A stretch of DNA of 64,000 nucleotides from positions 316,590 through 380,589 of the forward strand of contig CM020619.1 of assembly GCA_009829735.1 (NCBI GenBank), in the 5' to 3' direction. Origin of the DNA: Pyropia yezoensis (taxonomy: Eukaryota; Rhodophyta; Bangiophyceae; Bangiales; Bangiaceae). Positions 12,727 through 60,061 of the stretch are shown in pieces. Below the pieces are notes generated by a model. It ran no database searches. It was not told where the DNA came from and saw nothing but the letters and a program-made list of their open reading frames with translations. How positions within the stretch are numbered: position 1 is the stretch's first letter; the number at the start of each line of letters is the position of its first letter. The position numbers were made by a program, and so were the translations under genes.

Positions 12727-12727
12727 G

Positions 12728-34607: not shown

Positions 34608-35265
34608 GGAGGGGGAGCGGGGTCCCCGCCGGCCACCGCCCCGCCCATCATCCCCCAGTCGCTCGTACGCCCCCACGTCGGTGGCAATGGCGGCGGCGGC
34701 CGGTGGGTGGCCAAGCAAAGAGCAGGGCGTGGGCGTAGGGCCGTCAGTGCCCCCCCCCCCTGCGGGAGGTTTGGGCTCGCCCTTGGCCCCTCCCTTCCCC
34801 CGCCCCCGCTCCACTGCCCACTTTTGGCAAAGCCCGTTTGGACGGCCGCGCTGCGCGGGCGGCGTGCACACACAAAAAACGATGCCCCTCGTGCCCACGC
34901 GCAGCGGGGGGGCGGGGGGGGGGGGGGGGGGGGTGGGGGAGTATGATGGATGGCAAGGACCGAGAGGGGGAGGGGGGTGGGGAGAGGGGGGGGGGGGGGG
35001 GGCAAGTCGGCGGCGGTGCGTCCAGAGCCGGCGTCAGGAGCGGTCACAGCAGCACAGGAAAAAAAAAAAAAAAGAGGAAGGGTGAGCGACAAAAATAAAA
35101 GAGAGAGGGAGGCGGAGGTGCGGGTGGGGAGGGAGGGAGGGGGGTGAGAGCGCGTGTGGTGGTGGGGAAGGGGCGTGGCCCTCGTCCGGCCGGCGCACGT
35201 TGCGCGCGGTCGCTCGCCATGCCGGCGGTGCCCGGGACCGCCTGTCGGGTGTGCCACGGGCATTG

Positions 35266-35478
35266 TCAGAGGCGGTCGGGTCCCCCCCCCCCCCCTCCCT
35301 CCCACCCTCCTCCCCCTCCTCCTCCCCCCCCCTCCTCCTCCCACTCAAGGTCCACACCCGCCACGCCCCGCCGCCCCCCCCCCGCGGCGGGGCGGTGCCG
35401 CTTGTGCGCCCCCGCCCGCCGCCCGTCGCCGCCGCCGCCGCCGCCGCCGCTGCCGCCGCTGCCGCCGCTGCCGCCGCT

Positions 35479-35510
<32 letters not shown>

Positions 35511-35814
35511 GCGGGCGCGCGCCGGTGGCACGCCCGTGCCGCCGCTGGGCCAGCGGCCCGTCGGCGGCGGCGGCGCCGCCGCCGCCAGTGGCCGTCGACG
35601 TAGACACAGTGGACGATGCGGACGATGCCGGGTCGCCGGGGGGGGGGGAGCCGGCGTCGTGCCGGTATCTGCCGCCCGCCGCCGCTGCCGCCGCCGTGAC
35701 GGCCGTCGCACCAAGCCGCGGGCGGTGGTGGGCGGCGGCGCGGCGGTCGGCCGCCGTCGCGGGCGGCGGGTGGGGGTCCCCGTCGCTGCCGCTGCCGCCA
35801 ATGGTGCTCCAGCT

Positions 35815-35852
<38 letters not shown>

Positions 35853-38800
35853 CGCCGTCGGGGGTGCTGCCCAGGCTGTCGGTGGGGGACGTCTCCTCCC
35901 CCCCGCCGCCGTCGTCCACCCCCCCCCCGCGACCGGTGGCGCGGCGGTGCAGGATGGACGGCCGGGACAGCCGCGCGGCGGCGGCCGACCGCTTGGCGCC
36001 CACGACGCGGGGGGGGGTGTCGGCCGCTGCGCGCCGGCCGCCGCCGCCGTCCCCGCGCGCCACCACCACCACCCGCCGCCGGGCGGCGGCCGCCGCAGCG
36101 CCACTGACGGGGGGGCCCGCCGGCCGGGGGGGCGGCGCCGCCCCGCCGCCCCGCGCGGCGGCGGCCGTCGCCCGCCCGTCGGCGGCGGCACGGCGGGCGG
36201 CGCCGGCGCGCGCGCGCGCCGCCGCCGCCGCCGCCGCGCGGGCCACCGACGAGGGCGTCCCCGCCGCGCCAACACCAACACCAACACCAACACCGCCGCC
36301 GCCGCCGCCCGCGAGGGGGGGGGGACGGCGGCGGCGGCGGGGTGTCTCTGCCGCCACCGCCCCCCCCGCGCCGGCTGGTAGTCGACCCGGAGCGGGGTGG
36401 GGGGGGGGGCAGGCGCCGCCGCCACCGCTGCTGTGGCGGTGGCGGTGGCGGTCGACGGGAGTGGGCGGGGGACGGGGGGGGGGGCGAGTGGGTGCGCCCC
36501 GGTTGCCGCCCCGGCTTTGCCGCCGCCGCCGCCGGCTACGGCGGCTGCGGCTGCCAGTGGTGGGGGTGGTGCGGGAGCGGCGGTCGGGACCGCCGCCTCG
36601 GCGGGGGGGGGTGCTACCCCCGCCGGTACAATGGGCGCCGCCCCCACTGGCACGGCGGGCGACACGGCCATGAGGGTGGGGGATGCCGCCGCTGCTGCTG
36701 CGACCGCGGCCGCGGCCGCCTCCTCTGCCGCTCTGGGTCTTGCTACCACCACCGCGGCGGTGGCGCCGGCGGCCGTGTCACTCGTGGGGGTGAGCCCCGA
36801 CGGGGACATGGCAACGGTCATGGTGGCGTCCTCGGGGCTGGCCCCGCCGCCGCCGCCGCCGCCAATGGCGTGCACCGCCGCCGGCGACATGTCCTCGGTC
36901 ATGTAGACGTCCCGGTCGGCCGCCGCGGCGGCCGGCCCAAACACCCCCCCCCCCCCCCCCCCCGCCGCCGCCGCCGCCGCCCCGGCGGCGGGTGGGGTGC
37001 ACTCGGCCATGGGCGACCCGTCGGGCGCCCCCCCCGCCGTGGCGGCGGCGGCGGCGGCGGCGGCGGCGTCTGCCAGCGCGTCGGGGCGGCGGGCGGCGAG
37101 CCACCGCAGCAGGGCGTGGGCGTAGGCCGGGTCGGGCGCCCGGCCGGCGGCCGCCGCCACCGCCGCGGCGGCCGCCGACTCCAGCGCCCCCACCCGGGCG
37201 GCCGCCGCCGCCGCCGCCTGCCGGCCGCCCCGCTCGGCGGCCAGCGCGGCGCGGGTGGCGTCCACCTCGGCGCGCAGCCGCGACGCCGTCGCCGCCGCCG
37301 CCGGCTCGGCGTCCGCGGCTGCCGCGGCGACGGCGGCAGCGGTGGCGGCGGCGGCGGCGGCGGCGGGGGCGGCGGCGCCGTCCGTGTCCCGCGCCTCGTC
37401 GGCAGCCGCAGCAGCGGCCTGGCGCCCCTCCTCGACAGCGGCCGCTTCCGCCGCCGCCGCAGCAGCAGCAGCGCGCTCCCGGTCAGCCTCTTCGCGGTGC
37501 GCCCGGTCGGCCGCCGCCGCCGCCACCGCCGCTGCTGCGGCCGCCTCAGCCGCGGCGCGCTCCCGGTGCGCGGCGGCCGCGTCGTCGGCGGCGGCCGCGG
37601 CGCCCCCCTCTGCCGCCGCCAGCCGTGACCGCAGCCGCCGCGCGTCGGCGTCGGCGGCTGCCGCCGCGCCGCGCGCGTCGGCGGCCGCCGCGACCGCCGC
37701 CGCGACCGCCGCCGCGGCGGCGCCCGCCTCGGCCACTGCCGTCTCCTCAACCGCCACCCGCGCGGCGCGGTCGCGCGCCGCCTCGTCCGCGGCGGCCGCC
37801 GCCGCCGCCCGGTGCCGGTGCGCCTCGTCGGCGGCAGCCGCCGCCGCCGCCCGATCACGGGCGGCGGCGGCGGTGGCGGCGGCCGCCGCCGTCCGGTCCC
37901 GGTCGGCCGCGTCGGTGGCGGCGGCCAGCGCGGTGCGGTCGCGCGCCGCCGCGTCGGCGGCGGCGGCGGCGGCCGCCCGATCCCGGGCGGCCGCGTCGGT
38001 GGCGGCGCCCAGCGCGGTGCGGTCCCGCTCCGCCGCCGCCCGCGCGGCGGCCGCGTCGGCCGCCGCCGCCGCCGCCGCCGCCTCTGCCGCCGCCGCCGTT
38101 GCCGCCGCAGAAGCCACCTCCCCTGCCGCTGTCGCGGCGCCCGCGTCGGCGGCGCGGGCCGTCTCGGCCGCCGCGGCCGCCGCGTCGGCGGTGCGGGCCG
38201 CCTCGGCCGCCGCCGCCGCCGCGTCGGCGGCGCGTGCCGTCTCGGCCGCCACCGCCTCCTCGTCGGCCGCGCGTGCCGCCTCGGCCGCCGCCGCTGCCTT
38301 GGCGGCGCGGGCCGTCTCGGCCTGTGCCTCCTCCGCGGCGGCCGCCGCCGCCGCCGCCGCCTTTACGTCGGCCGCCTCTGCCCGCCGCGTCGCGGCAGCC
38401 ACCTCCTCCGTAGCGGCGGCGGCGGCGGCCGCCGCCTTGGCGTCGGCCGCCTCTGCACGCCGCGTGGCGGCAGCCACCTCCTCCGCAGCGGCCGTCGCCG
38501 CGGCCGCTGCCTCTGCGTCGGCCGCTTCCGCCCGCCGCGTGGCGTCAGCCACCTCGTCCACGGCGGCCGCCGCCGCCGCCGCCGCCTTTGCGTCAGCCGC
38601 CTCTGCCCGCCGCGTCGCCGCAGCCGCCTCCTCCACGGCGGCCGCCGCCGCCGCCGCCGCCTTTGCGTCGGCCGCCTCTGCCCGCCGCGTCGCGGCAGCC
38701 GCCTCCTCCACGGCGGCCGCCGCCGCCGCCGCAGCCTTTGCGTCGGCCGCCTCTGCCCGCCGCGTCGCGGCAGCCGCCTCCTCCACCGCGGCGGCGATGA

Positions 38801-41800
38801 TCGCCGCCGCCTTTGCGTCGGCCGCCTCTGTCCGCCGCGTCGCCGCCGCCGCCTCCTCCATGGCCGCGGCGGCCACCGCCGCCGCCTTTGCGTCGGCCGC
38901 CTCTGCCCGCCGCGTCGCCGCCGCCGCCTCCTCCCCCGCCCGCCGGGCGTCTGCCTCTGCCCGCCGCCGGGCGGCGCGCTCCCGCTCCACCGCCGCCGCC
39001 CCCTCTGTCGCCGCCGCCCGCGCCGCCGCCAGCTCCGTCGCCGCCGCCGTCGCCGCCGCCGCCGCAGACCGCCCCCCCGCCGTCGCCGCGTCGGCGGCCG
39101 ACCGGCGGCACGCCGCCGCGTCGGCGGCGGCGGCGGCGGCGCGGCCATTGGCGGCGGCGGCACGGCCGTCGGCGGCGGCGGCAAGGTCATCCGCGCGGGT
39201 GACCGCCGCGCGGGCGGCGGCGGCGGCGGCGCGCTCGCGGGCCACCGCCGTCGCCGCCGCCGCCCGCTCCTTGCGGAGTCGCCCGGGGGTGGCCGCCGCG
39301 GCGGCCGCGTCGGCGGCCGCCGTCGCCGCTGCCGCCGCCGCGCGGCGGCCGTCGGCCTGCCGGCCCGACCGCTCGGCGGCGACCGCCGCCCGGAGGTCCT
39401 CCACCTCTGCCCGCAGGCGGCCTGTCTCGGCGGCCGACGCGGTCGCCGCCGCTGTCGCCGCCGCCACCGCCGCGTCGCGGTCGGCGGCGGCGGCGGTCGC
39501 CTCGGCGAGGCGGTCCGTCACCTCCTCCAGCTGCGCTTGGAGCCCTGCAATGCGGGCGGCGGCCGCCGCCGCCGCGGCCGCCGCCTCGGCCCGCACTACT
39601 TCCTCCCCCGCAGAGGCGCGGCGGACAATCGCCGCCGCCTGCGCCGCCGCCCCCGCCACGCTCGCATCGTCGTCGGAGCAGTCGGCCAGCGCGGCTGCTG
39701 CCGCGGCGGCCGCCTCGTCCAGCCGCGCCCGCAGGGCGGTGGCACGGCCCGTGGCGGCGGCGGCCGCCGCCGCCGCGTCCTTGGCATCGGCCTCCGCGGC
39801 GGCCTGCCGTGCGGTAAGCGACGCGATGTGCGCGCGCTTGGCCGCCGCCGCCGCCGCCGCCGACGCCGCCGCCGCCGCCGCCGCCGAGGCAGACCCGCCC
39901 GACAGGCGGCCGCCGCCGTCGGCACGAGCCCCCCCGCCCCCCAGCAGCGGCGGGGGGGCGACGCCCAGCTCCACCCGCGCCGCGTCGGCACCCCACCGGA
40001 GCGTCGACGCCGTCTCGTCTGCCTCGCTCTCCTCTGGCGCGATGTTAACAAACAGCAGCACCTTGCCCGTGGGCCCCAGGCAGCGGGCGAGGAGCTTGGT
40101 CAGCGCCGACTCGCGGTACCCGACGTAGGCGTCCTTGGCGGCGAGCGCCTGGAAGAGCTTGCCGAGCACCGAAAGGCTCCCGTTGATCGCCACCGACTCG
40201 TCCCGCCGCACGCCACTCGCTTCCGTCCGCTTGTTGCGCTCTGAGCCGGCCAGGTCCACCAGCACCAGCTGCCCCGTCGTCGTTGTCGACGTCGTCTCCC
40301 CTGTGGACGTGCCGGCGGTGGTGGTGGTGGTGGTGGTGGTGGTGGTGGTGGTCACGTCGAGGATGACCAGCAGGTGGGACCGCGACGACGCGTCATTCAT
40401 GCGCGTCGCCGCCGACGCGCGGGCGGCGGCGGCGGTGGCCAGCAGCCGCAGCACCTGCGCGGGGCTGGCCACCCGCCGTACCGTTGCGGCGGGCGCGATC
40501 CACCCCTTGCCGGGCAGCGACGGGTCCAGCGCCAGCTCCACGGTGCGCCCGCCGCCGGCGCCGGCGCCCAGCGACGGCCGCCCCATTGACGTGCGGCCAC
40601 GGGGGGGGAGGAGGCTCCCGTCGGCCGGCCGCCGCGGCCGGTGGACGGGCACGCTCGCCGACCGGGGCACCCGTGGCGACCGGCCGGCTGCGGCTGCTGC
40701 TGCCGCCGCCGGGTGCCGCCCCGCACTATCACCGCCGCCGACGCTGCTGCCTACGCTGCCACGACGGACCGCCGACTGCGGGGTGGACGGCGCCGCCTGC
40801 GGGGTCGACGGCGCCGCGCCCCCCGCCGCCGCCGCCGCCGGTTCCCCCACCGGCAGGTCGGCCGGCGGCGCGCCGACCAGCAGGTCCCGGACCGACTCGT
40901 TGTATACCTCGAGGATCCGCACCGCCATTGTCGCCGTCACCCCCCGCTCGGCGGCAAGGGCAAACAGGTCGGTCAGGGCGCGGCCAACGACGCCCGGCTC
41001 CCCCCCCCCCCCCCCCGCTGCCGCCGCCGCCGCCGCCGGCGTGCCCATCATCGTGTGCGTCTTGCCCGACCCCGTCTGGCCATACGCCATGAGGCAGACG
41101 CTCCCCCCCCCCAGGGCGGCGCCCACCACCCCCGCCGTCGCCTCGTACACCGCCGCCGTTGGGGTGTCGGGCGGGAAGACGCGGCCAAACTCGTACGCCC
41201 CCCGCCCCGCCAGCGTCACCACACACCGCGCCTCCTCCCCACCCCCTGCCGGCGGCGGGGGCACCCCCACCGCCAGCCGCGCGGCCGCCGCCCCGCCCCG
41301 CGGCGGCCGCACGCGGCAGAGCACCCGCACGGCGCCGCGGGCGTCCTGGAGGGCCTCAAAGTGCCGGCGGCGGTCCGTCCAGGCGCGGAGGTAGGCGCGG
41401 TCCGCGGCGGCGCGGTCCGCGTCGGCGGCCGCCACGTCGGCGCGGAGGCGCTCGGCCACCTCATTCGCCGCGGCGACTGCCGACAGGCGCGCCGCCGCCC
41501 GCGCCGCCGCCTGGGAGGCGGCGGCGGTGGTGGCAGCGGCAAGGTCCGCGGCGGCCGCCTGCTGCGCCGCCGCCATCTCTGCCGCCGCCGCCGCCTGCCG
41601 GGCGTGGAGGGCGGTCACCACAGACGCCGCCTGTCGGCGCGAGGCCGCCGCCTCGGCGCGGGCGGCGGCCGCGTCGGCGCGCGCCGCCGCCACCGCCGCG
41701 GCGGCGACGTCGTCGTCGGCGGCGGCGGCGGCGGCAGCCGCGGTGGTGGTTGTAGTGGTGGTGGTGGGGGTGGTGGTAGTAGTGGGGATGGTCGTGGCGG

Positions 41801-43271
41801 TGGGGCTGCCACCCCCCGCGGCCGCCGCGTCAACGGCGTCGTTGGCGGCGGGTGCGCCGGCGGCCGCACCGTCGGCGGCCGCACCGGAGGGGGCCGCCGG
41901 CGTGGCCCCACGAACCCCCCCCGCCGCGGGGGGCGTCGCGACGCTGTCGGCGAGGCGGGTGGTCACCCACCCGGCGGGGGGGGTGCCCGCCGCCGGCGGC
42001 ACGCGGGCGCCCTCAAACGGGCGCGCCAGCCGCCGCAGCCCGGCGGCGGTGCCGGCGGCACGGGCGGCGGCGGCGGCGGCGGCCGCGGCGGCACGGCCGG
42101 CAGCGTCGGTGGCGGTGGAGGTGGTCGCGGCGGGGACGCCCGCGACCCCTGCGCCCTCCCCCTGCGCCCTCGGTGCCACGCGGCCATCCCCCGCCATCTC
42201 CCCGTCCTTGCCGTGCCGGGTAGAGGCGGCGGCCGCCGCGGGGCCCGCCGCCACCCCCCCCGCCGCCACCACCGTCTCTGCCGCCGCCGCGCCCCTCCCC
42301 GTACCGCCGGCAGCCCCCCACCAGTCTTGCACCACCTGCTGCGGCGGCCGCCCCCCCGGGAGCCCCCCCGCCGGCGACGGTGGGGGCGGAGCGGAGACCA
42401 TCATGGACCGGCGGTCGCCCGGCTCGTCCACCCACACCGGACCCCCCGACGGGCGCCGGCGGCGGCCGCTGCTGCTGCTGGTGCTGCTGCTGTTGCTGCT
42501 GCGGCGGGGGCGACCCGGTGGGGCCCCCGCCGCCGCCGCCCCCAGGGACGGGGCCTCTGGAGGCGCCGCCGCCACTTCTCGCCGCAGGGCGTACGAGTAG
42601 CCAACGGGGACCTGGTGGTAGGCGGGCACGCACACGTCCAGGGTGACCGTCCAGAAGCCACCACCACCACCACCCCCACCGCCGCCGTCGCCGTCGCCGC
42701 CTGGCAGGCCACCCCCGTCAAAGGCGGGCACCCACCGCAGCGCCACCGCCCGGGCCACGTCCCACCCCCCCAGTTCGGGCAGGGAGCCAAGCACCCCCAC
42801 CCCCGTCACCCCCGCCTCCCCCGGGGGGGGGGCGCCGCGGAGCGTCAGCGCCAGCCGCACCGTGCCGGCGGCGCCCCGGCCGGGGGGGGTCGATGACCCC
42901 GCCGCCGCCGTCGCCGCCGCCGCCGCCGCCGTGTCTGCTGCCGCAGCAGCGGTGGCGGCGGCGGTGGCGGCTGTGAGCGCGGCAGGCGTGGCGGGGGTGA
43001 GCCGCCGTGCGGGGGCGGGCGCAGACCATGGCGGCCGCCGGACCACTGGCGCCGGCACCGCCGGCGGCGACGCGGCGGCCGCCCGGTCCGCCGGTGCACC
43101 CGCCGCCGCCGGGGGCCTACCGCCCGCCCGACGAGGCGAGCGGGCGCTGGTGGTGGTGGTGGTGGTGAGGGTGGTGGGGGTGGTGGTGATGGTGGTGGTG
43201 GCAGCCGCCGACGCCGCCGCGGCGGCGGCGGCGGCGGCGGCAGCAGCCCCCCACACAAACGGGGAGCCGCC

Positions 43272-43306
<35 letters not shown>

Positions 43307-43585
43307 CGGGCGCCAGCGGCACCACCGCCGAGCACCCCGCCGCCCGGGACAGCCACACGGGGGCGGGGGTGGCCCAGCGGACCCCCCCCCCCTCCCCGAG
43401 GGACACCGCCGCCCGCTCCAGCCGCCACCCCTTGTGCGCGGCGGGCCCCCGGAGGGTGACCGCCAGGCCGGCCAGCGCGCCCACGTCGGCGGTCGTCAGC
43501 GTCGCGGTGCGGACAGAGCCCCGGTCGGGGGAGGCGGGGTGGCGGCGGCGGGGCCGCCGCCACCGGCGACCGCCGGCGGTGGCGT

Positions 43586-43628
<43 letters not shown>

Positions 43629-45096
43629 GACGGTGGATCGGCGGGGGGGGGAGGAGCAGGTGGGGTGGGGCGCCTCGTCACTGCTGCTGCTGCAGCTGCC
43701 GCCGCTGCCGCCAAACAGAGCCCCCCCCACCCCTCCCCCACCGCCGCTGCCGCTGGGCAGGTCCACCACCTCCTCGGGGGCGGTCAGCTCCAGCACCGCC
43801 CCGACGGACCGGTAGGCAGCGCCAATGAGCGCCACCTCCACGTCCGCCACCGTCCCCGCGCCGCGGTAGTCGGCGGTGTGGAAGGCGAGGCGGTAGGTCA
43901 GGGCGGGGGTGCCCGGCGGGGGGGCGGCCGCCGGCAGGGGGTGGGGCAACGACACCGCCCGGGGGAGCGGGGCGGGGAGGAGCGGCGGGCCGGGGCGGCC
44001 CCCCCACCCGCCGGGCCCGTCCCCACCGCCGCCCCCATCCCCGTCAGACCCGTCAAAGGCGGGGCCGACGGCGGGGCCGCCGACGGCACCGTCGGCGCCA
44101 AGCAAAAGGGGTGGCCCCGCCTGCGAGAGGGCACCCCCACCGCCCGGGGGCGTGCCCGTTAGCAGCGGCAGCGGCGGCGGGGGGGACTTGGCCCCACCAC
44201 CGCCACCGCCGCCACCACCGTCGGCGCCATCATCATCCCCGCGGAGGGAGGAGGGGGTGGGGGGTGTGCGTACCATGACCGTGCCCGCCAGCGGTGGCGG
44301 TGGCAATGGCAGCGGCAGCGGCCACGCGGCGCCGTCGGCGGGGGAGGGGGGGGAAGCCGGCGACGGCGGCGTGCCCCCACCGCTGCTGCTGCTGCTACCG
44401 CCACCGCCGCGCGACCGCCGCCGCGCCGCCGCCACCGCCGCCGCCGCCGCGGCCGCCGCCCCGGCGCGCGCGTGCGCGGCGCCCGGCGGGGACTTGCACC
44501 GCGTCGGCGGCGACGCCGCCGGCTCCGAGGCGGGCGTGGCGGCTACGCCCGCCGCCGCCCCCCCGCCCCCGCCGCCGCCCCCGCCGCCACACGCGCCCGG
44601 AAACAGCAGCAGCGGCAGCAGCGGCGGTGCGGCAGTGGCGGCCGCCGCGTCTGGGGGCCACCCCCCCCCCCCCCCCCCCCCCCCCCCCCACCTCCCCCCC
44701 GCCTCCCCCCCCGCCACCGCCGCCCATGGCGCGGACGTTGAGGGCGGCGGGGGTGAGGGGCCCGCCGAGCGGCCGCCGCACCGACCGGGTGGCGGTGCCA
44801 AACGCGGGCAGCGGCGGCGGCCACAGCCGCCGCCGCCGGGCTGTTGGGGCGGCGGCGACCGCGGCGGCCGCCGCCGCCGGCCCCCCCCCACCCACGACCA
44901 CCAGAGGGGGTGGTCGGCCGGCGGCGGCGGCGGCGGCAGCGGCAGCGGCGGCCGACGCGGCGGCGGCGGCGGTGGAGGCGGCGGCGGCGCCGACGGGGGA
45001 GGGGGTGGTGGTGGACAGGGGGGGGGTGTCCCCGTCGTGGGGGGGGAAGCGGCCGAGGCGCCAGCCGAGGCTCGGCCGGCTGGGGGATGGCACCAT
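35266..45096 (-). CDS. Giant kinesin with N-terminal PLAT and CBM20 domains and Ala-rich coiled coil
   Basis: Start ATG 45096; about 3,270 residues. Order: disordered N-terminus; PLAT/LH2 domain, about 43905-43360 (TYRLAFHTADYRGAGTVADV, then HKGWRLERAAVSL), split by low-complexity insertions; CBM20 starch-binding domain, about 42870-42390 (GVGVLGSLPELGGWDVARAV, VPVGYSYALRRE, VWVDEPGDR); coiled coil and neck (HFEALQDARGAVRVLCRVRP); motor, about 41340-39965, with P-loop GQTGSGKTHTM, switch I NDASSRSH and switch II DLAGSE; then about 1,000 residues of Ala-rich coiled coil with 25-aa repeats; acidic/Gly tail. The neck resembles kinesin-14, usually minus-end-directed. The N-terminal segment joins the main frame only across C29 (44661-44689), and near 36361 the protein-like sequence moves to the frame ending at TGA 35266; without that shift the frame continues to 35034. 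All motor signatures are intact. CBM20 implies starch or glucan binding in the cytosol. Confidence 0.85.
38320..38940 (-). repeat. In-frame 75-bp minisatellite in the kinesin coiled coil
   Basis: About eight copies of a 25-aa unit (EEAAAATRRAEAADAKAAA plus an Ala run), near-identical in the central copies and more diverged at the ends. Shorter 14-aa repeats (RDRTALAAATDAAD type) lie next to it (about 37840-38030). Confidence 0.85.
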
Positions 45097-47107
45097 GGGC
45101 AGGGGGGGGGGGGGGGGGGGGGGGTGGATTGGGGAGAGAGGGTGGTGGGAGGGGGAGGGGTGGGGGGGGGGGAAGGGGGAGGGGGGGGTGGTGGGGGGGG
45201 GGGGGGAGGTGGGAAAGGCCGCCAAGGTGGGGAGCAGGGGCGGAGCGGGTGCCGACCAAAGAATGACGGCACCACCGTCTGGGATGCAGCAGCCGGTGCG
45301 GTCGCGGGCGGCGGTCGTCCCCCGCCGGTACGGGGAAAGGGGGGCTCAAAAAGGTCGGCGGGGCGCCGGCGCGGGCGCGGCCCCTCTCCCCTACCCCCCC
45401 CGCTGTGACCTTGCGCCCTCGGCCCCCTCTCCCCCTCCTCCCGCAGGGCCACGCCCCCCGCCCGCTGGCGCGCTGCTGCCAGTATGTATCCCGTCGTCAC
45501 GCCCACTGCCGGGAGCCGGCCAGCGTCGGACAGAGACGTGGAGGAGGCGTGGCGGCAGAGGGGGCCGGGAGAAGCAGGCCTGGAGCGGGCGGATGGCGGT
45601 GGTGTAGGGGGACACGCTGCCGCGGCCGGGAGCCAATCTCGTCCGCAGCTCTGCCTCCCCGCACCCCTCCCCCACCGCACACGCACTCACCGCGGTGCCG
45701 ATGTCTTGGCCGGGGGAGGGAGAGGCGGCGGCGGAGGGCGCGCCCGCCCGCCAGACGCAGGCCCGCCAGCGACCGCCGCCGTCGACGACGTGGGCGCGGC
45801 TGTGGTCTCCGACGGAGTGTATCAAGGTACAGTACAGTCCAGTACAGTATGGTAGGTAGGCTATGGCATACACGTCATGTGGGGTCCCTTGCCAAGGGCC
45901 TCGGGGGAGGGGGGCGGAGGGAGGGAACGGGCTCTGTATGCCTCGCGCGTCGCGGTGGCGGTGGCCGCGCGTGGTGGGCCAATGCGGGGTGGTCGCCCGT
46001 GCAACGTAAGTGGCCGTGGGGGGGGGGGGGGCGGGGCGGGCGGCCGTCCCACCGGCCGCGGGCTGGGCCACGCACGGCCGTCCATCGGAGGCCCGCCGAT
46101 GCCACTGGGCGGTGCGGGTGGTGGCGGCCGTTGCGCGCCAACCCTTTTGAAATTCAAAGGCTAGCGAGGGGGGGCAGGGGGGCCCGTGTGACGGGTCGCA
46201 TGATGAGGGGATGGGGTTCGTCCCCTTCCCATTGGCCATCGGGTAGGTGAGGGAACTGTCAACGCTGTGTGTACTTGACCGGGGTGGGCACCCGTCGCGG
46301 TCAGCGGTCTGACCGGTCGCACAGCAGTTGCGTGACCAATGGGGATGTTGGTCGTCTATCGCGACGTGGACAGGCCTTGCGCCTGTGCAGTCTGTTGATT
46401 GCGGGATCCGCGGCACTACACAGTGGATGTGTGACACAAGCGAATGCGCCTTGGAGACAGACTTATATACATGGTTGGCAGTAGTTTTTATTGTGACCAA
46501 TCCAGTGAACTGCATTCGTGCATACAGGTATACTTGAGACAGACAGAGCTCGTTACTTGCCAGAGTCAGTTTGCGATGCGCGCGCGATTGAGCAACGTGT
46601 CACGCCCGTCAAGAGTCTCATGCACAAGCCCAACTCATTGGTCTCCGCTGTGGGCGTGCAAAGCAAAGTCCCGTTTGCAAGTCGAGATTCCGTCCCTGAC
46701 TGGCGTTAGTGGCAGTAGCAGGCACTTGCGCCGTGTTGCACCGAAGCAGCACTTTCATTCTCTCTCCCTCCTGCCCTTGCGCCAGACCCGTCGGGCCTAC
46801 TGACCGGGTGGGCCTGCTCGTGTTGTGACCGAACGCGACTCTACGGCCTGGTACGCCGTTGGAGAGTCGCCGCGGTTGCCATCGGGACGCCCTTCTTGCT
46901 GCTGCCGGCCTCCCTCCTTGGCCGCTCTTTTCTGTCGCCAGCGACCCCTCCTTTTGCTTTCTTGGGTTTCCTTTGTCTCATTCCATCCGTCCTCTCTCCG
47001 GGTTGTTGTTTTCCCTTGGCCTCTCTTCGGTTAAACCGTTCTGTTTTCCCTCGGCCTCCCTCCGCCGGGAACGCCATCGTTCCCAGCGGGTCACCCACCC
47101 CGCCGCC
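45097..47107. promoter_or_regulatory. Divergent intergenic region between kinesin and 5-phosphatase genes
   Basis: 2 kb. Contains G23 (45102-45124), GTACAGTA motifs at 45827-45849 and a TATA-like ACTTATATACATGG at about 46461-46474. No coding sequence recognised. Confidence 0.4.
45827..45849. promoter_or_regulatory. GTACAGTAC motif pair
   Basis: GTACAGTAC at 45827-45835 and AGTACAGTA at 45841-45849. Confidence 0.4.
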
Positions 47108-50100
47108 ATGTCCTACTCTGACTACACGGCGCGAGGGCGGGGCTACCACCGTGACTGGGACGATGACGGCCTTGACGATGGCGGTGGTAGCGGCGGCGGC
47201 GGCAGCGGCAGCAGCGGGCGGCGGTATGGAAGCCGCGGCGACGGGGGTGGCGGGGACGACCGCGGCAGCCGCCGGGATGGGGGGGGGTACGGGGACGACG
47301 ACGACGGCCTGGTGCGCACCCACCCGGCTCGGGTCAGCGGCAGGGACGACGGGGAGCCACAGTCCCGCTCTCGTGGGGCGAGCCGGGAGCGGCGGCCGCG
47401 GAGGGACCCCGAGCGCAGCTGGCTGTCGGATGGGGGCAACGCCCTGAGGGGGCACCTGCGACGCAGCGGCGGGCGGGAGCGCAGCCGCGGGCGGGAGCAC
47501 AGCCGCGGGCGGGAGGACAGCCGCGGGCGGGAGCGGAGCGCCGAGCGGAGGCGCAGCGTCGAGCGGGAGCGCATCGACGAGCGGGAGCGCAGCGCCGAGC
47601 GGGAGCGCCCTGCCGGACGGCGCCCCCTGTCCAGGCGACGCCACGACGACGAGCGGGAACGCGGTGGCGCTGTTCGGGAGCGCATTTCCAGGCGGCGCTC
47701 CCACTCCAGGCGGAGCATCGACGACGACGACGACTACCGGGGCGGGCGTGAGAACGTCGGGGGCAGCGGCGGCCGCCGCCGCCGCCACCGCAGCAGCAGC
47801 CTCACCAGCAGCAGCAGCGGCAGCGACAGCGGTGGTGTCGGTGGCCGCGCTGGCCGCCGCTGGTCCCCGCCGCGCCACGCCCGCGGTGGGGATGCAGACG
47901 TGTTGGACGAGGAGCCGTGGCGGCCACGGCGGGCCGCCTCGGACCCGCGGCGAGCCGACAGCGGCGGCGACAGCGGCTCCCGCCTGGATTGGTTTGCCAA
48001 CGGCACACCCAGCGTGGCGTACAACCGCAGCGTAAGCCGGGGGCTCGGCGGCGACGCGGCGGCTGCCGCCATCATTGTCCCCCCCCCCCCCGTGAACGCG
48101 GGCGGCAGCAGCGGCAGCGGCGGCGATGGCATGCCCGTCCGTGTCTTTTGTGGCACATGGAACGTGAATGGGGGTCCCCCCGCGGCGGGGGTGGACCTCC
48201 GCCCGTGGCTCACCGCCACCGGCGCGCCCGCGGGGGGTGGCAGCCGTGGCGGTGGGCGGCGCGGCACGCACGACCTGTACATGGTGGCGTTCCAAGAGGT
48301 CCAGCCCCTCTCTGGCCGCACCGCCATCACCACCGACACGGAGCGGGGGCGGCGGTGGGAGGCGGCCGTGGGCGCCGCGTTGGGTGGGGCTGACGCGGTC
48401 ACCCGCATCGCGTCGCGGCAGCTGGTGGGCATTCTCCTGGTGGTGTTTGCGTCCAACGCGCTGGCGCCGGCCGTGTCCAACGTCCTCGTCACGGATGCGG
48501 GGGTGGGGCTGATGCGGGCGGCGGGGAACAAGGGTGCCGTTGCCGCCCGCTTTGTGCTCTACGGCACCACTAGCGTGGCGGTGGTGAGCTGCCACTTGGC
48601 CGCTCACGACCACGCGACGGAGCGGCGAAACGAGGACTACCACCAGGTACTGCGGGAGGCAGTGTTTGAGGAGGGCGGGCCCCGCTACGAGAATGCCGAC
48701 TGGGGGACCCTCCGGGCGGCGGTCAACTCGGGGGTGACCAAGGCGCGGTCCAAGGTGCGCGCAGCGGGAGCGGCGTACGGGCCGTCTGGCAGCAGCGCGT
48801 TTGGTGGTGGCAGCGGGGGGGAGGACCTGTACGGCCCAGGGGTGCGGCTGGTCGAGGCAGACGCCCTGTTTTGGCTGGGCGACCTCAACTACCGCATCGA
48901 CCTACCCGCGGACGTTGTGCTTGACTGCATTGCCAAACGGGACTGGCCGACGCTTCGCGACGCGGACCAGCTGACCGCCGCCCGTGCCATGGGCGCCGTC
49001 TTTCGGGGCTTTTCCGAAGGCGTCTTGGACTTTGCGCCCACGTACAAGCACGCCACCCACAGCGATGGGTATGCACTGCACGAAGAAGGGGGGGTGAAGC
49101 GGACGCCCGCCTGGTGTGACCGCATCCTGTGGCGCGCCCATGAAGGCGGCCGGCCGGCGGGTCGGGTGGTACTTCATGCCTACCGCCGCCACGAGGTCCT
49201 GTCGTCTGACCACCGGCCTGTGTCGGCCACCTTTACGCTCACCGCCCGGCTGCCGTCGCAGCCGCGGGGGGGGGGGGGGCGGGGCGGCGGTGGGGGCAGT
49301 GGCGGCGGCAGCGGCGGCGGCGACGGCGACGGCGGCCGCGCCGTGCGAGAGCCCCGCTCCGCGCCCCCATCGATGGCGGCCGTGACGTTGTCGCCGTCAC
49401 CTGTGGTGGCGCCACACCGGTCGCGGGACCCCTCCCCGCGGGCGGCTTCGGTGACGGCGGGAGCGTACGCCGATAGCGCGTCGACGGTCTTTCCGCGGTC
49501 GCCACCGGCGGTGGCGACCGCCGCCGCCGCCGACGCGCGGGGGAGGGGGGGCAGTGGGGGGGTGGGGGGAGAGCGGAGGGACGGGGGGCGCGAACGACTG
49601 AATGGGGGGGCGGCGGCGCCCCGAAACTTTCCCCGGTCCCCCGCACCGGGGCTCGACGCGAACCTGTGGGGGGAGGACACCCCCCGTGGGACCGTCGGCC
49701 GGGGGGGCGATCCGCCGCCGCCGCGGGTGGGGGTACCGCCGCCGCGGCGGGACGACGCCCGCGGTCGCGAGGCGGACGTGTGGGTGGGGGGCGCCCCCCG
49801 GGGACCTGGTCGGGGAGGCGACCCGCCGCCGCGGCGGGACAACGTCCGCGGCCGGGAGGCGGACCTGTGGGGAGAGGACGCCCCCCGGCGGCTCAGCGGC
49901 AGTGGGGGGGGTGACCCGCTGACGCCCCCACCGAGGCGGGATGGCGTCCGCGGCCGCGAGGCGGACCTGTGGGGGGAGGACGCCCCCCGGGGGGCTGGCC
50001 GGGGAGTCGACCCGCCGCCGCGGCGGGACGACCCGCCGCCCCGGCGGGACGACGCCCGCGGCCGCGAGGCGGACCTGTGGGGGGAGGACGCCCCCCGGGG

Positions 50101-50776
50101 GCTCAGCAGCAGGGGCGGTGAGCCGCTGGCGCTCCCACCGCGGCGGGACGACGGCCGTGGCCGGGAGCGTGACGGCGGGGCCCCCCGGCCGTCCGAGCGG
50201 GGCCGGGATGACCTGGCGGTCCGGTCGGGGACGGCCGGATGGGACGAGCGCACCCGCGGGGGGCGGAGGGAGGGGCGAGACGGCCCCCGGCCGGCCGGCC
50301 GGCCAGACGCCCGCCCGTCTGGCCGGGAGGCGGCCCTGTGGCAAGACGCGGGGGCGCCGGCTGCCGCCCGCGGCGCAGGCGCTGCGGCGGCGGCGGCGGC
50401 GCCCCCCCCCGGCCTGAGCGTCCGCCCCCCCCGGCTGCACGTCGGGCGGGTGCGGTACGGCACGCCCGCGTCTGGCACCCTCTCCCTGGCCAACCGGTCG
50501 GGGGGGCCGGTGAGCGTGCGGCTCGCCGCCGCCGACGTGCCGTCGTGGCTGCGCCTCGCCCGGGACGGCGGCGGGGAGGCCATCTTTGGGGCCCCCCGGA
50601 CGCGTGCGCACGCGGCGACGCTGGTGGTTCCCGGCTTTGGCAACCTCTGCCTGGTCGCCACCGTCCTTGTCGACGCGGACGGCTGTGGGGGGGGGGTGGC
50701 CGCCGCGCTCGGCCGCGGCGACGCCCCGCTGGTCGCGTCGCTGCCGTTTCGCGCCGCGCCGGATGGTGGCGCTGGT

Positions 50777-50816
<40 letters not shown>

Positions 50817-51171
50817 GGGGCTCCCCCGCGGCGTCGTCGCCCCCCCCCCCCGTGCTGGTGGCGGTCGTTGAGGGCGACTACCCCCGCACCGCCCTGGGCG
50901 GCTCGGCGGCCGGCCTCACCGCCGACGCGTCCCCGCGGGGCGCCACGCCCGCCATCTACCCGCCAGAGGTGCGGCGGCTGTGCGACCGCCTCGTCGAGGC
51001 GTCCCGCGCGGCGCTGCCGTCCGTGTCACCCCGCGGGAGCAGGGTCGACACGAGCCCGGCGGCGGTGGCCGACACGCTGTGCCTGCCGCCGCCGCGGCCG
51101 CTCCCGTCTGCGGTGGTCACCCTCCTCGACGCGGCCGACACGGGGCGGCCCTTTCCCCCGCTCTCGCCACC

Positions 51172-51202
<31 letters not shown>

Positions 51203-51685
51203 AACGGCCGCGACTCCCGCGACTCCCGCGACGGCCGCGACTCCCGCGACGCCCGCGACGCCCGCGACGGTAGCGGCCGGGACGACCCTTTCGCGGCGGC
51301 CGCCGCCGCCGCGGGCGCCCTCTACACCCTCCTGACCTCGTTGCGGCCACCGCTGCTGCCTCCGTCAGGGAGCCCCACGCAGGGCGACGCGCCGTCGTGG
51401 GCGGCGCTCCACCTGGTGGCCGCCGCCGCCAAGCGGGTGGCGGTGGACCGGGCGCGGGCGGCGCGCCCCGGCGACGGCGACGCGGAAATGGCGGCCATCC
51501 GCGGCGCCGCCGACGCGTGGGTGGCCGCCCTGACGGGGGAGGGGGAGGCGGGCTGGGAGGGGGGGGGAGGGGGGGGCGGCGCGGCGCGCCGCCGTGCCGT
51601 GGCGGCGCTCATGGAGATCCTGCAAACGCCATCGTCGCGGCATGAGGGATCATCCTCCTCCTCCTCCCGCTCTTCACAGAGGTAG
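47108..51685 (+). CDS. OCRL/INPP5B-like inositol polyphosphate 5-phosphatase (1,525 aa)
   Basis: Intronless from ATG 47108 (context GCCGCCATGT) to TAG 51685. Residues about 115-180 are Arg/Glu/Ser repeats (ERERSAERERP). The catalytic IPPc domain spans about 345-705 and has every signature: GTWNVNG, FQEVQ, GNKGAV, SCHLAAHD, FWLGDLNYRI, RTPAWCDRIL and SSDHRPV. It should remove the 5-phosphate of PI(4,5)P2 and related lipids. About 850-1020 holds tandem repeats with ADLWGED. About 1105-1260 reads as an ASH-like beta domain (RLHVGRVRYGTPASGTLSLA, PSWLRLARDGG, LVAVVEGDY). The C-terminus (YPPEVRRLCDRLVEAS, LYTLLTSLRPPLLP) resembles a degenerate RhoGAP domain lacking a clear Arg finger. The order phosphatase-ASH-RhoGAP is that of OCRL, which acts on endosomes and Golgi. 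Activity is confident; the RhoGAP part is tentative. Confidence 0.92.
49670..50180 (+). repeat. In-frame repeats in the 5-phosphatase linker
   Basis: Five to six units of about 28-33 residues with core GREADLWGEDAPRG followed by PPPRRDD. A second, shorter array of RDG/RDS/RDA triplets lies at about 51175-51275. Confidence 0.85.
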
Positions 51686-52441: not shown

Positions 52442-55400
52442 TCACCTCAGCGGCTCGGCTGCGGGCGCCCGCCCCGGACCAGTGGAGGTAGAGGTGGCAG
52501 CGGCGGCAGCGGCGGCGGCGGCCGCAGCGGCTGCAGCAGCGCGGGGCCTCCCCCCCGCCCCAGGCGACGGGGTCGCCAGCTCCGCCTCCTCCTTGGCAAT
52601 CAGCGCCTCCGCGGCGGCAACCTGCGGGGCGGCGGCGGCCAAAAAGTCGGCCGCCACGTCGGCGAGCAGCTCCGCGTGCTGCACCACCCACGCCACGTCG
52701 GGGGTGGTGTTGAACAGCCGCGCGTTGTGCACAAGCAGGCGCATGTCGTCCATCGCGGCGGCGGCAGAGGTGTACTGGCCCTTGCGCGCCTTGGAGCGCA
52801 CCAGGTTGAGGTGCATGGGGCGCTTGACCACCTCCCGGTAGTGGGGGACCGACTTGGGGTTGACGGGCAGCGTGAAGTCCAGGCCAGTCCCGGCGGGCCG
52901 CGCCAGGTTGGCCGCCGCGTGGCCGGGCGGCGGGGACTCCCCGGGCGCCAGCCGCTTGATGACCATCGTCGGCGTCTGGGTCGCAATGTAGCCCTCGGCG
53001 TTGCGGACGGCCGCCTCCATTCGCTCCAGGAGGTTGTTGAGGTCCACCACGCCGTGCCGCTGGGAGCGGCGGGAGGTGGGCAGCTCGGCCGACGTTGCCG
53101 CCGTCGCGCCGCCGCCCGCACCGCCGCCCGCCGCCGACCCACCGCCGCCGGGGCGGCCCGCAGACGCGCCGCCAGCCGCCGCGTCGGCGGCGCCCCCCGC
53201 GCCAGCGAGCCGCCGCGACGGCGGAAACTCCTCATCATCCCCATACTGCTGCCGCCGGCGGCGGGCGTCGGCCTCGGCGGCGGCCGCGTCAATCTGCTTG
53301 GCGTTGATCTTGATCTTGGCAATCGCCCGCTTCGGTGCCGGCGGCGGAATGACGTGCGCGCCCCCGCGGGGCGGCGGCGGGCGGAAGGTGCCCCGCGGCC
53401 CGCCGCCGCCACCCCCACCGCCGCCTCCACCGCCACCGCCAGCACCGCCACCGCCGCCGCCGCCACCCGCTGATAACGACGGGCGGCCCCCGACCACGCC
53501 ACTGCCGCTGCTGTGCGCGCCACCGCCCAGGCCGCCGCCGCCGCCACCGCCGCCGCCAATGCCGTTGCCATCCATGCTGCCTCGGCGGGCAGCGCCGAGG
53601 CCGCCCAAGCTGCCGCCCCGCCCGCCGCCGAGCCCAGAGAGGGGCGACGGTGGCCGCTGCGGCGGCCGCGCCTTGCCCCCCCCTACCGCCCCCGCGGTGA
53701 GGGTGTTCACGTTGATGGCAATCTTGAGGCTCCCCTTTTTCGACACCGCCGCCGCCACGCCAGACCGCCGCGGTGCGGGCGGCGGAAACGACCGGACGGG
53801 CGCAAGGCCTGCGGGGGTGGGCGGCGCCTGGCGGCCGCGGTCCCCGGCGGCGCCGCCGCCGCCCGCACTGCCCTCGGCGCTGGCGCCGGCTCCCCCGCCT
53901 TCGCCGTCCCCGCCGCTGCCGCCACCGGCCTTGTCGTCCCCGCCCGCCGCCGCGTCGGCTTCACCCCCGGCCGCCGACGACTTGCGCCGCTTGTTCCGCG
54001 CCAGGATCCGCTCAATCTCCTTGGGGTCCCGCACATACGTGACGACCTTGCGCTTCTTCCCGTCTGGAGCGATGCGGGTCTTAGAGAGCTTGAGCCGCGG
54101 CTGCTGCTTGACCCCCTTTTTCTTCTTGGGCGTGTCCCCAGCGGCGCTGCCGCCGCCGCCGTCGCCGCCGCCTCCACCACCGTCACCTCCGTCTAGCTCG
54201 GCGGCTCCGTCCTTCGCGTCGGGTGAGCCGACGCCATCGACGCCATCGCCGACGAAACCGTCGCGGGGTGTCGGGGGCGCTACGAGCGTCGGCGGCCGCG
54301 GCGTCGCGGGCCCAGTGGGCGCAGCGCCCGGGCTGTGCGGGCCCGCCCCGACGGGCACAGCCGACGCCGCATCCTCGTCGGCCGCGTCGGCGCCTTTTTT
54401 CTTCCGCCGGCCTTTCGTGACCCGCCCGCGGCCCTTGCCTTCGCCCCGACGCGCCTTCCCTTTGGGCGGCAGCGCCCCGTCGCCACCGCCATCCCCGGTG
54501 ACACCGTCCTCGCCCCCGTCCGCAGCAGCCGCGGCAGCAGCCGCCGCAGCCGCCGCGGCCGCGCCGCCGCGGCCGCCCTTGGAAATGGGTTTGGTCGCCA
54601 CCCCCAGCCCCCCCGCCGCGCCCTTGCGCGCCCGGCCCGTGCCGGCACTGCGGCGCCGGCTCTTGGGCTTATCCTCCCCGAAGCCCCCCCCATCTGCGGC
54701 GCCAGCCCCGCCGCCACCGCCCCCCGCCCCGTCGGCGGCAGCCGTGCTGCCGCCGCCACCACCCCCCCCCGACGCGCTGCCTGCAGCGGGCCGAGGTCGG
54801 ATGACCGACACAGAGACGACGCCAAAATTCCCGGCGGGTGCCGACTTGGCGGCCACCTCCGCCTCGGCTGCCACCTGCGCAGCCAGCGCGGCGGCCCTGT
54901 CGCGGTCGCGGGGGAGGCCAGAGGTATCACCCACCTCGAGCGCCGCCCGCTGGAGCGGCAGAGGCAGCAGCCACTCCACTCCACCCGCCGTCGAGGTGGG
55001 GCCAGTGGCGGGGCCGCTGCCCCCACCCGTGCCACCGGCGCTGCTGCCACCACCCCCCCCCCCGCCCGAGGCTGATGAAGTCGCATCCCGGTGGCGCGCC
55101 AGGACCCCCCCAATGATGTCGGCATAGTCCCCCCGTGCTGCCTCGGGGGGACCCCGCGTCGTCGCCACTTGCCGCAGCAGCGCCTTGCGGGCGGCCACGT
55201 CAGCAGGCACCTTTTTCGCCGACACCCGGTAGTGGGCCGTGAGAAGGTGGAGAGCCTCTGGCGCCGACGTCTGCAGCAGCCGCGCGTCCAGCACCGGCCC
55301 CCCCGCGGCAAGATCACGCAACGACCGCGCCGTGGCCAGCGACGACAGCAGGTCCTCGCGTTGCGCCTTGGTCGCCCCCAGCAACGTGGAAGTCCGGTGC

Positions 55401-58400
55401 CAGGGGGTGGCTAGCAAGAGCATGCGGATGAGGCACCCCACCGCCTGCCCGTGCGACAACGTTGTCCGGGCGGCGGCGGCGAGAAGGTTGCCGTGGCTCG
55501 CCGGATAGGTGAACTGGCTGACCCCCCGGCTGAGGAGCGTCGCCACCCCAGCCTCCATCGCCTCAAACGCGCACGACTCTTCGGGGGTGACGGTGCGGAG
55601 GAGTTCTGCTTCCCGAGACGCGAAGTGCGGCGGCTCGTTGATGACGTACCGCCCCCGCTCATAGCTGGTGCGCTCCTTGAGGACCCTAAGGAGGGTGGTC
55701 TCGGGGAAGGAACGGCGGCGCCAAAAGTGCCGCAGGAGCTCCTCCTTATCCACCGAAGGCCGCTCGACGGCTTTTTTTGTCAGCCGGCTAAACTCACGGA
55801 GCATCCACAGCAGCACCCGGTCACGGGCGTAGCGCTTGGCACGATCCGTCCCAGGCGCCATGGCCTCGACGCGGGGCTCAGTCGCCCCTACCGACACCAC
55901 CGAGTCAATCTCCCGAACCGACATCTTGTTGCCCCGCTTGATGACAAGGAAGTCGCAGCCCGCGTGGATACCGCTATTCCCGCCGCCGCCGCCACTCCCA
56001 CCTCCCGAAATTTTGGACGCGGGCGCCGCAAATAAACCACTCTCCACCACCACCAGCGGCGGACCGTCCGGAGGCAGGTCCCCAGCGGCCAGTGGCGGCG
56101 GCTCCTCGGGGGCAAGAAACACCGTGTCGGCGTCGGGGGTGCCCGCCGACGCCGCGGCCGCCGCGGCAGCTGCCGCGGCAGAGGATTTGCGCGCGTACGT
56201 GACGAGGCGGCACGCCATGCCGGGCAACGGCAACAGCGACGGTTGCCGTTCGAGGGCGTACTCAAACAACGCCACCCGGTAGGCGTCTCGGGCCGCACAC
56301 GACAGGTCGCTCTTGCGCTTGGGCATCTGACCCGCAATCTGCGCGGGCCCTTCCTTTGGCCGCTTCCGTCGGATGGGCACAAGCGCCTGCCCCGACGGCA
56401 GCGGGGAGAGGACGCCCAGTCGCGGCCGGTGAAACGCAACCAGCTCCGCATCCGAGACGACGGGGGGGATGGTGTAGGCTTTGGCGGCTGGGGGCGCGTG
56501 GTTGAGACCCCGCAGCGGGGACCGCCGGTTGGCACGGCGGGAGAGGGCACCACTCCCAAACTCGCCGCCGTAAAAGACGTCGTTGGACACGTTGAGGGGA
56601 TCCGCGACGGCCAAGACACCCCCCGCGGCGGCCGACGCAGCCGACGCGGCGGCGGCCGCCGTCTCGGCCGCCGCCGTCATCTGCTGAGTGTCTGCGGCGA
56701 GGAGCACACGCGCGCGCGCGCCAGCGAGGATCACCTCCTTCTCGCCGGGCGCCATTGCGCCGGCACCGACGCCTGCCGCTGAGCCACCAGAGCCCACCCC
56801 GGCTGCACCGCCCCCCGCCTCGTCGGTGGCCGTGGGGGCTGCAGCGGCTGCTGCTGCGGCAGCCGCAGCCGCCGCGGTCGCTGTCGCCGCAGCGGCTGCA
56901 GCCGCGGCGGCGGCCTTGGAGCGACCAGGCGCGACGGCAGCCTTGGCCGCCCCCCCCCCCCCTCGCCCACCTGCCGGGCGGGCCTCCCCTCCCCCCCCCG
57001 CCTTGTCCACCAGCTCTGCCAACAAAGAGCCGTCGTCCTTGCGGAACAGGTCCGCCGGGAGGTCCGCCACGGCCGACACGTCGGCCGCGGCGGGCGAAAA
57101 CAAGGCGTTCCGCCGGCGGGCATGGAAAACCATGGCCGGGTCGTTGAGGTCAAGAATGAGCCGCGAGAAGCGGGATCGCAGCGTCCGGGAGGATAGGTCC
57201 GTCGATGGCACAGCCGGGCCAGCCCTACCGACGCCACGGCCGGCGTCGCTGTCTTCCTCCCCGCCCGAGTCCCACAACACGTCGTCCATCCACGCGCCGC
57301 TGGCAAGAAACTGATTGGGCTCAAGCGGCCGTGCAACGAGCGACCGCGGGGAGACGTCCAAAATGGGCTCCCACACGGGGACCTCCGGGGAGGGGGAGCC
57401 GCCGCCATTCCGGATGTCAATCTCGGGCACCGGCGTGGCGGGAAGAGTGGCGGCATTGGGTGCCCCACCAGCATCAGCCGACAATGGCTCAGCAGGTGCC
57501 TTGGCCTTGGCCGCCGCCCTCGCACTCGACGGGGGCTTGGCACCGCTTGGCAGTGCGGCCGCTGGTGGCCGCGGAGAGGAATTGGGCCCGCCGGGTGCAG
57601 TCGCACCGGAAGGAATGGCGCCCGCAGCGCCCGGTAGATGGGGGGGGGGGACGGTGGGGGGAGGTGACGGGGGCGGGGGTGCCTGCGGCAATGCACACGC
57701 GCCAGGGGTCAAGGGGGCAACGGCGGGCGGGGCGGCTGGTGGCGCATCGTCCTCCCAGATGATACCGTCGTCCTCGTCCGAATCGTCATCGTTCTCTGCC
57801 TTGTCCGTCGCCGCCGCCGGTGAGGGGCTCAGTGCAGGGACGCCACCGGGGCCACCCGCGCCGGGTGCGGCCTCGGCCCCTGTTGGGTTGTGCCCGCCGC
57901 CAGCAGCGGTATTGGCGGCCGGTGCCGCCGGCGCGGGAGGCGCTCCTCCTCCCACGCCCCCAGCGTCGTCCCCTGGCGGGGGCGGCGGCGGCGGTGCTGC
58001 CTCATCGTCCTCCCAAATGATACCATCATCATCGTCACTGTCGTCACTGTCGGCCCCGGCTTTGGTGTCGTTGGCGTTCGTTGGGGCCGCTGCCGATGCG
58101 CTCGCGCCGGTGCCAGCGGCACCGTCGGCGGGCGTTGGTGGAGGCGGATGCCCGGCAACCGCCGCTCCCTGACCACCCAATGGAAATCCCCCCTCGCTGT
58201 CACTGCCGTCGCTGCTGTCCCCACACTCGCCCGCGCCATCCCACTGGATGGCCTCCTCCCACGCGGCCTGCTGCACCATGTCGTACGCGGCCGACTCGTC
58301 CACTGCGGGCAGCAGGCGAGCGCGAGACGCGTCAAGCGGCTGCGCGGCCGACGCGTCATCCTCCTCTTCCTCCTCCTCTTCCGTGCCAGCCACTCCGTCA

Positions 58401-60061
58401 GCGCCAGTGTCCATCGCGTCAGTGCTGCGAAGAGCATGGGATCCGTCCTCAGCAGGCGCCCCCCCCTCCCCCCCGTGTGTCGCACAGGCCGCAGCCTCCG
58501 TTGAAAGGAAGACGGTGATGGTGTCTAGTGACGGCGGCGGCGCGGGCGCGTGCAGCAGCTCCATGTCGTCGGCAGCCAGCGGAACCCCACCGCCGCCGCC
58601 GTCACCGCCGCCGCCGCCGGCCGCCTCGCCCGGCGCCGGAAGGAGGCCCAGCCGTTGCCGCCGCGCCGGCGGCGGGCGCTTGCGCGGCGGCGCGGAAAGG
58701 ACAATGGAGAAGCGGAGGGGCACCCGCGGGTCGCGTGGCACCGCCGCTACGGCGGCGGCGGCAGCCGCGGCCGCCTCCGCGTCCGCAGCCGCGTCGGGTA
58801 CCGCGGTGCCCGACGCCGTGGCGGCTGCCGCGGCGGCACACAAGGCAGCCTGCGTGCGGGCGGCAGCCTCGAGCGCTGACGGCGGTGGTGGCTGCACCAC
58901 CCCCGCAGGGGGGGCCGGGGCGGCCGCCCCCGCGGGGGTGGGCACGGAGGTCGACGCCACCACTACTGGGGTCACGGCGGCCGACGCCACGCCCGGGGTG
59001 GGGGCGGCTCCACCCCCGTCACCGTCATAGTCGTCGTCATCGTCGTCGCCGCCGCCGCCGCTGCCGCCCGTGGCCAGCTGCGGTCCACCAGCTGCGGCCG
59101 CCCGCAAGGCCGCCGCCGCCAATGCCGCTCGCGTGTCGTCGTTGGCAGTGAGAACATTCTCCTCCTCCTCCTCCGCAGCGTCTTCCTCGTTTTCATAGTC
59201 AACGGCTGCGGTGGGTAAAGAAGGAAGGGGGGGGGGATGGTAAGGGGCGTGCATCGAGCGTGCGCGAAGAAAAGGAGAAACGCCAGGGAGAAGGCGGGTA
59301 AGGTTGTGCAAAAAAGAAAAAGGATTCGGGGGAGGAAATGGAGTGGAAGCAATGGGAGTGATGCGGCCGGAGACAAACGAGGAAACCATGCATGCGGGGG
59401 GGTGGAAAGGGAGGAGGGGAGACACAGGCGAAACATCGAGGTGCAGAAACCATAACAGGCGACGCGCGGCAAATGACCCCGTTAGTACTCCGCTGCCAAG
59501 CGCTACACCCACGCCAGGGAGCGCCATCCCGCTTTCATGCTTCCATACGCCGGTGCGGCGACCCTGGCGACGGCGCCAAGCCCCACCCCTCGCCTTCCTC
59601 TACACACGTACAACCGCTCGCCCCGTCCCCCCGCGCCCGGGTCGGCAAAACACCCACCAGAACCCCCTTGCCACCAGCCGCGCCGACCATGCCAACGCAC
59701 CTGCATCGTCGTGCGCCGCGCTGCCGGCGGCGCCCCCCCCCCCCTCCCCCCTGTCGTCGTCGTAGTCCTCTTCATCGTCGTCACCGCCACCGCCGCCGCC
59801 GCCACTGCCCGCTGCGGCGCTCTTCCGTGCCGCCGCCGCCGCAGCCACCTGCGCCAGTTCCTCGGACCGCTCAGCAATAGAGGGAGCGACGTGGCCCAGC
59901 TGCTCCTTGGCGTCCTCCTCCATGTAGTCGGCATCCTCGAGGCGGCCGCGGCGGTCAATGTTCCCAAAGAGGAAGGAGCCATAGCCGCCACCACCGCCTC
60001 CCCCACCGCCCCCGCCCCCGCCATTGCCCTGGCGGCCACCCGAGGGAGAGTCGTCCGCCAT
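52442..60061 (-). CDS. TAF1: TAF1, largest TFIID subunit, with one bromodomain (2 exons, 2,374 aa)
   Basis: Exon 1 is 60061-59701 and exon 2 is 59205-52442 (7,125 nt in frame). The N-terminus has FLFGNIDRRGRLEDADYMEE, the TAF1 start signature, after a polyglycine run. The splice restores AVDYENEED, matching the conserved DAVDYS region of animal TAF1. A long acidic/Pro-rich region follows with DDGIIWEDD twice and GAWMDDVLWDSGGEED once, resembling the WEDDIIWD motif of TAF1. The conserved core (DUF3591, histone-acetyltransferase-like region) lies at about 56600-55290 (NVSNDVFYGGEFG, FHRPRLG, HPASHGN-like stretch, TPWHRTSTLLG). The C-terminus has a nuclear basic region and one bromodomain at about 53050-52580 (FTLPVNPKSVPHYREVVKRP, HNARLFNTTPDVAW) with the acetyl-lysine Asn kept and the usual Tyr replaced by Phe. 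It acts as scaffold of TFIID at core promoters. Animals have two bromodomains; one is common elsewhere. Confidence 0.95.
59206..59700 (-). other. TAF1 intron 1 (495 bp)
   Basis: Donor GATGCAG|GTGCGT, acceptor CCCACCGCAG|CCGTTGAC preceded by a polypyrimidine tract; phase 1. Splicing reconstructs a conserved TAF1 block, which supports both ends. Confidence 0.9.

Follow-up and report, generated by a model that had tools for sequence, protein, structure and literature searches.

A divergent kinesin-14 gene of Pyropia yezoensis with a predicted CBM20-type domain ahead of its motor, and its possible role as a glucan-microtubule link

Proteins such as STBD1 and laforin hold glycogen or starch through CBM20 and are not known to carry a motor domain. 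STBD1 is presented in the accessible part of PMC12785236 as a CBM20 adaptor that holds glycogen, and MDKIN1 and MDKIN2, as described in the accessible part of PMC7094084, are plant kinesin-14 proteins with an N-terminal malectin domain and a central motor. Here, we describe a minus-strand gene in a 64,000-nucleotide stretch of the Pyropia yezoensis genome (C2:316590-380589, referred to as the window), in which a conserved kinesin motor shares one open frame with a predicted CBM20-type domain. Our reading is of a divergent kinesin-14 whose CBM20-type domain sits in the tail, N-terminal to a central motor, and whose C-terminus is long and Ala-rich; such a protein might link glucan to microtubules, and we give this reading a probability of about 45%. 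Residue numbers (aa) count along the minus-strand stop-to-stop frame 35034-45686, and the central features are as follows.

36384..44276, minus strand: core open frame, Met 470 through residue 3100 (2631 codons), with 0 stops
42393..42866, minus strand: CBM20-type domain with two low-complexity loops, aa 940-1097, predicted from Pfam, a custom profile, and a structure model with control
41331..41426, minus strand: neck-like stretch leading into the motor, aa 1420-1451, of kinesin-14 type by eye in comparison with homologues
39975..41378, minus strand: kinesin motor, aa 1436-1903, from PF00225 and PF16796, near-invariant columns, and a tree
within 40488-40877, minus strand: low-complexity insert of roughly 100 residues that splits the motor, seen in the sequence

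The motor is well conserved. Pfam Kinesin (PF00225) matched it in two stretches, the best being aa 1733-1903, with an E-value of 1.5e-67 and a score of 228.4 bits against a curated cut-off of 29.3, and Microtub_bd (PF16796) matched aa 1436-1602 (E 4.5e-21). The P-loop GQTGSGKT, switch I NDASSRSH, and switch II LVDLAGSE all lie in one frame, confirming the complete motor with P-loop and both switches that a preliminary description of this DNA had proposed. Relative to 108 reference motors from a homologue search, it retains 47 of the 51 near-invariant columns. A tree of 38 rows placed the motor inside a 19-row clade (100/99) with KIN14F, KIN14I, KIN14B, KIFC1, and two kinesins of its own genome, L019 and L023. 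Its row had a branch length of 2.36 and was flagged for both long branch and composition, so only a family-level placement is safe, and at that level the motor groups with kinesin-14. This grouping, which was absent from the preliminary description, would make minus-end-directed movement the default.

A CBM20-type fold in the kinesin tail is well supported by sequence profiles and modeling. A custom profile built from 80 bacterial and seven own-genome CBM20 sequences scored the native segment at 17.2 bits and the segment with its loops cut at 21.2 bits; none of 3000 matching shuffles reached the former value and none of 3000 the latter. When 1004 pieces of the window were scored, two exceeded the shuffles, and both cover this segment. 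The structure model, read against a matched control, showed the fold of a starch-binding domain. A chance CBM20 motif was rejected on these shuffle and structure controls. The aligned tryptophans at aa 974, 1011, and 1084 are all kept in invariant columns, and we take two of them to be site-1 stacking residues of the glucan-binding face.

The frame that holds both domains is open on the minus strand from 45686 to 35034, or 3550 codons stop to stop. Since openness alone is weak evidence in such GC-rich DNA, stops were counted in all frames; genome GC is given as 65% in the accessible part of PMC7423979. Between 44276 and 36384 (2631 codons), no stop interrupts the kinesin frame, compared with 25 and 23 stops in its two minus-strand alternatives and an average of 16.8 across all five alternatives; a chance open frame was rejected on these counts. 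When 600-base windows between 44400 and 38701 were compared, GC in the kinesin frame peaked at the third codon position (0.85-0.94), and past 38701, in the Ala-rich part, first-position GC equals or exceeds it. The position of highest GC shifts frame at ~44.7 kb and ~36.3 kb, near two homopolymer runs, and a tandem repeat occupies part of the C-terminal region.

44661..44689, minus strand: run of 29 G at the upstream frame change (~44.7 kb), from GC by codon position and sequence
38326..38934, minus strand: 75-base tandem repeat in the C-terminal region, 8.1 copies, each unit encoding 25 residues and Ala-rich, from a repeat search and translation
36360..36367, minus strand: run of 8 G near the downstream frame change (~36.3 kb), from GC by codon position and sequence

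Both frame changes could be explained by homopolymer length or short introns, and the length of the 29-G run may break gene models here. The unbroken frame from the PLAT-like part (below) through the motor to the Ala-rich C-terminal region, as previously outlined, holds; the ATG at 45096 and the stop at 35266 that were taken as its ends belong, by the GC shifts, to flanking frames. By eye, the 25-residue repeat region looks helical or coiled-coil.

That the motor and the CBM20-type fold lie within one open frame, as had been claimed, is supported, and their presence on one transcript is only indirectly supported, by sequence composition. Two neighboring genes may have been read as one, with a PLAT/CBM20-type gene followed by a kinesin starting from an internal Met (e.g. 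aa 1163 or 1370). About 1 kb of low-complexity sequence separates the parts and such internal Met codons exist, but we regard this arrangement as improbable, as the gap has no in-frame stop vs three and two in the other minus frames, its GC is 0.79-0.86 with no drop to the flank level (0.50-0.62 around 46.2-46.8 kb), third-position GC runs at 0.88-0.94 through it, and neither AATAAA nor ATTAAA occurs on the minus strand between the CBM20-type part and the motor. It is very improbable that we are looking at a decaying or unexpressed copy. The long motor branch, the two apparent frame changes, and the fact that no annotated protein of this gene is among the protein-search matches listed would fit decay; 2631 codons without a stop and the retained near-invariant motor residues argue against it, and each frame change coincides with a run of G (29 and 8 bases), whose length is easily misread.

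Several observations weigh against a working starch-binding motor. The four departures from near-invariant motor columns are confined to its final third and speak against full motility; by eye, against five homologues, INKSL has become INGSL and the SKLT-type motif SALT, and motility is not assured because the changed lysines are, we presume, microtubule contacts. In the tail, PF00686 stayed below the Pfam cut-off of 23.3 bits throughout, at 11.7 bits when the whole protein was scanned, 16.6 bits (E 0.007) when the segment was scanned by itself, and 17.5 bits once the loops were cut. The CBM20 call of the preliminary description is supported through the custom profile and the structure model, and not by Pfam alone (16.6 vs 23.3 bits). 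Two presumed glucan contacts are altered, one from Lys to Ser and one from Asn to Arg, which leaves starch binding itself uncertain. The domain had no tblastn relative in a bacterial collection that gave 592 pattern matches, and a search for paralogues in the genome returned only the gene itself and weak matches (best E 0.023). Protein searches scored 8000 candidates each within set length ranges and listed 120 of 245, 23 of 23, and 19 of 19 matches; the matches listed were all kinesins, and none carried PF00686. No orthologue from another red alga was recognised among them, which does not show that red algal orthologues are absent because only 8000 candidates were scored per search.

In an alternative reading, the CBM20-type fold is real but no longer binds starch, and instead mediates protein binding or dimerisation in a kinesin-14 that acts in mitosis or organises microtubules. 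We find this somewhat doubtful, as all three tryptophans are kept in their invariant columns, including the two presumed stacking residues. On its side are the changed contact positions, a sequence far below the family cut-off, the long motor branch (2.36), and the example of MDKIN2, which has a carbohydrate-type domain and for which the accessible part of PMC7094084 nevertheless proposes a role in cell division.

The likeliest mechanism is one that would join alpha-glucan to microtubules. The tail would grip cytosolic alpha-glucan (floridean starch) through its tryptophan face, the helical parts would make oligomers, and the motor would use microtubules to tether or pull the glucan, with movement toward their minus ends as the default. 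Red algal starch is cytosolic. In this way starch would be placed, or microtubules would be anchored on it, in cells that reportedly have no myosin: the accessible part of PMC8888420 reports N. yezoensis as without myosin genes and suggests kinesin for chloroplast and vesicle movement. A more specific version is a dedicated starch motor in red algae, whose bangiophytes are reported to lack myosin: a kinesin-14 would use a CBM20 tail to grip granules and would move or anchor these on microtubules, with the cytoskeleton thereby placing carbon stores and sharing them out at division. This version seems unlikely.

Upstream of the CBM20-type domain, the preliminary description had placed a PLAT domain.

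43308..43904, minus strand: PLAT-like segment with a long low-complexity insert, aa 594-792, matching PLAT only with the insert cut

This domain was not confirmed, and we keep it as a lead. The native segment had no Pfam match; with the insert cut out, PLAT reached E 0.086 (14.0 bits vs a cut-off of 23) over positions 1-103 of 117. Shuffles of the cut segment matched PLAT in none of nine cases, and one shuffle matched another family at E 0.026. PDB sequence searches with this segment and with the CBM20 segment each found nothing below E 0.04, and the displayed alignments were low-complexity. PLAT had no match across the whole genome, but none of 14 control genomes matched either, so absence is not shown.

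The genome scanned comprises 107,475,971 bases in 11 contigs and contains at least 22 kinesin matches, in at least 13 loci by our own grouping, including the window gene. The open frames of 11 of the 12 other kinesin loci gave no CBM20 or PLAT at E up to 0.5, in a scan that excluded L029 as well as L027's second frame and that exons in other frames would escape. L029 (4514-5856, plus strand) is a weak kinesin-like locus split over two frames, and L030 (3367-5979, minus strand) is another, with only 82 bits in three pieces; each could represent a motor that has degenerated or strongly diverged. Dynein_heavy had no match across the whole genome, but the control genomes were likewise blank, so absence is not shown; the phycobilisome family had one nuclear match. 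CBM20 gave 11 matches over E 0.01 elsewhere in the genome, in seven loci, the window domain not included. Three CBM20 loci were scanned and proved GWD-like, GH77, and laforin-like. The laforin-like one (L034:3710-5821, plus strand) combines four CBM20 stretches with a dual-specificity phosphatase domain in an open frame of 704 aa, and L036 (2118-5603, minus strand) is a GH77 glucanotransferase with CBM20. L037 (4168-5163, minus strand), a 332-aa frame that nearly copies the CBM20 part of L036, is possibly its partial duplicate.

Elsewhere in the window, a long open frame at 46829-51682 (plus strand), in head-to-head orientation to the kinesin gene, is inositol-phosphatase-like (Exo_endo_phos2, E 1.9e-65). 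A 2361-aa open frame at 52445-59527 (minus strand) carries DUF3591 and a bromodomain, and resembles the transcription factor subunit TAF1. Retrotransposon-type frames at 11767-16992 (plus strand) and 20788-23472 (minus strand) contain reverse transcriptase, RNase H, and integrase zinc-binding domains, the former with an additional integrase core.

Among the titles and abstracts listed by literature searches, none described a motor with a starch-binding domain, with most subscription papers outside the literature covered, and the main text of PMC1434745, in its accessible part, mentions neither starch nor CBM. Within the genome, L019 and L023 share the kinesin-14 clade of the window motor in the 38-row tree but differ from it in their 732- and 839-aa open frames, C-terminal motors, and lack of any CBM20 or PLAT match. 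STBD1 and laforin differ in that neither is known to have a motor domain, whereas the window gene has a kinesin motor. The plant MDKIN1/2 proteins share its layout, being kinesin-14s in which a carbohydrate-type domain precedes a central motor, and are 1195 and 1083 aa long (PMC7094084, accessible part), whereas the window frame exceeds 2600 codons and has a long C-terminal Ala-rich region. Its domain is CBM20-type, not malectin, and Malectin had no Pfam match in the whole frame (E up to 1) or in tail segments (E up to 10). If the tail does bind starch, the gene would offer a testable handle on the placement and division of carbon stores in cells without myosin, and it would join the plant malectin kinesins as a second case of a kinesin-14 whose tail is of a carbohydrate-binding type.
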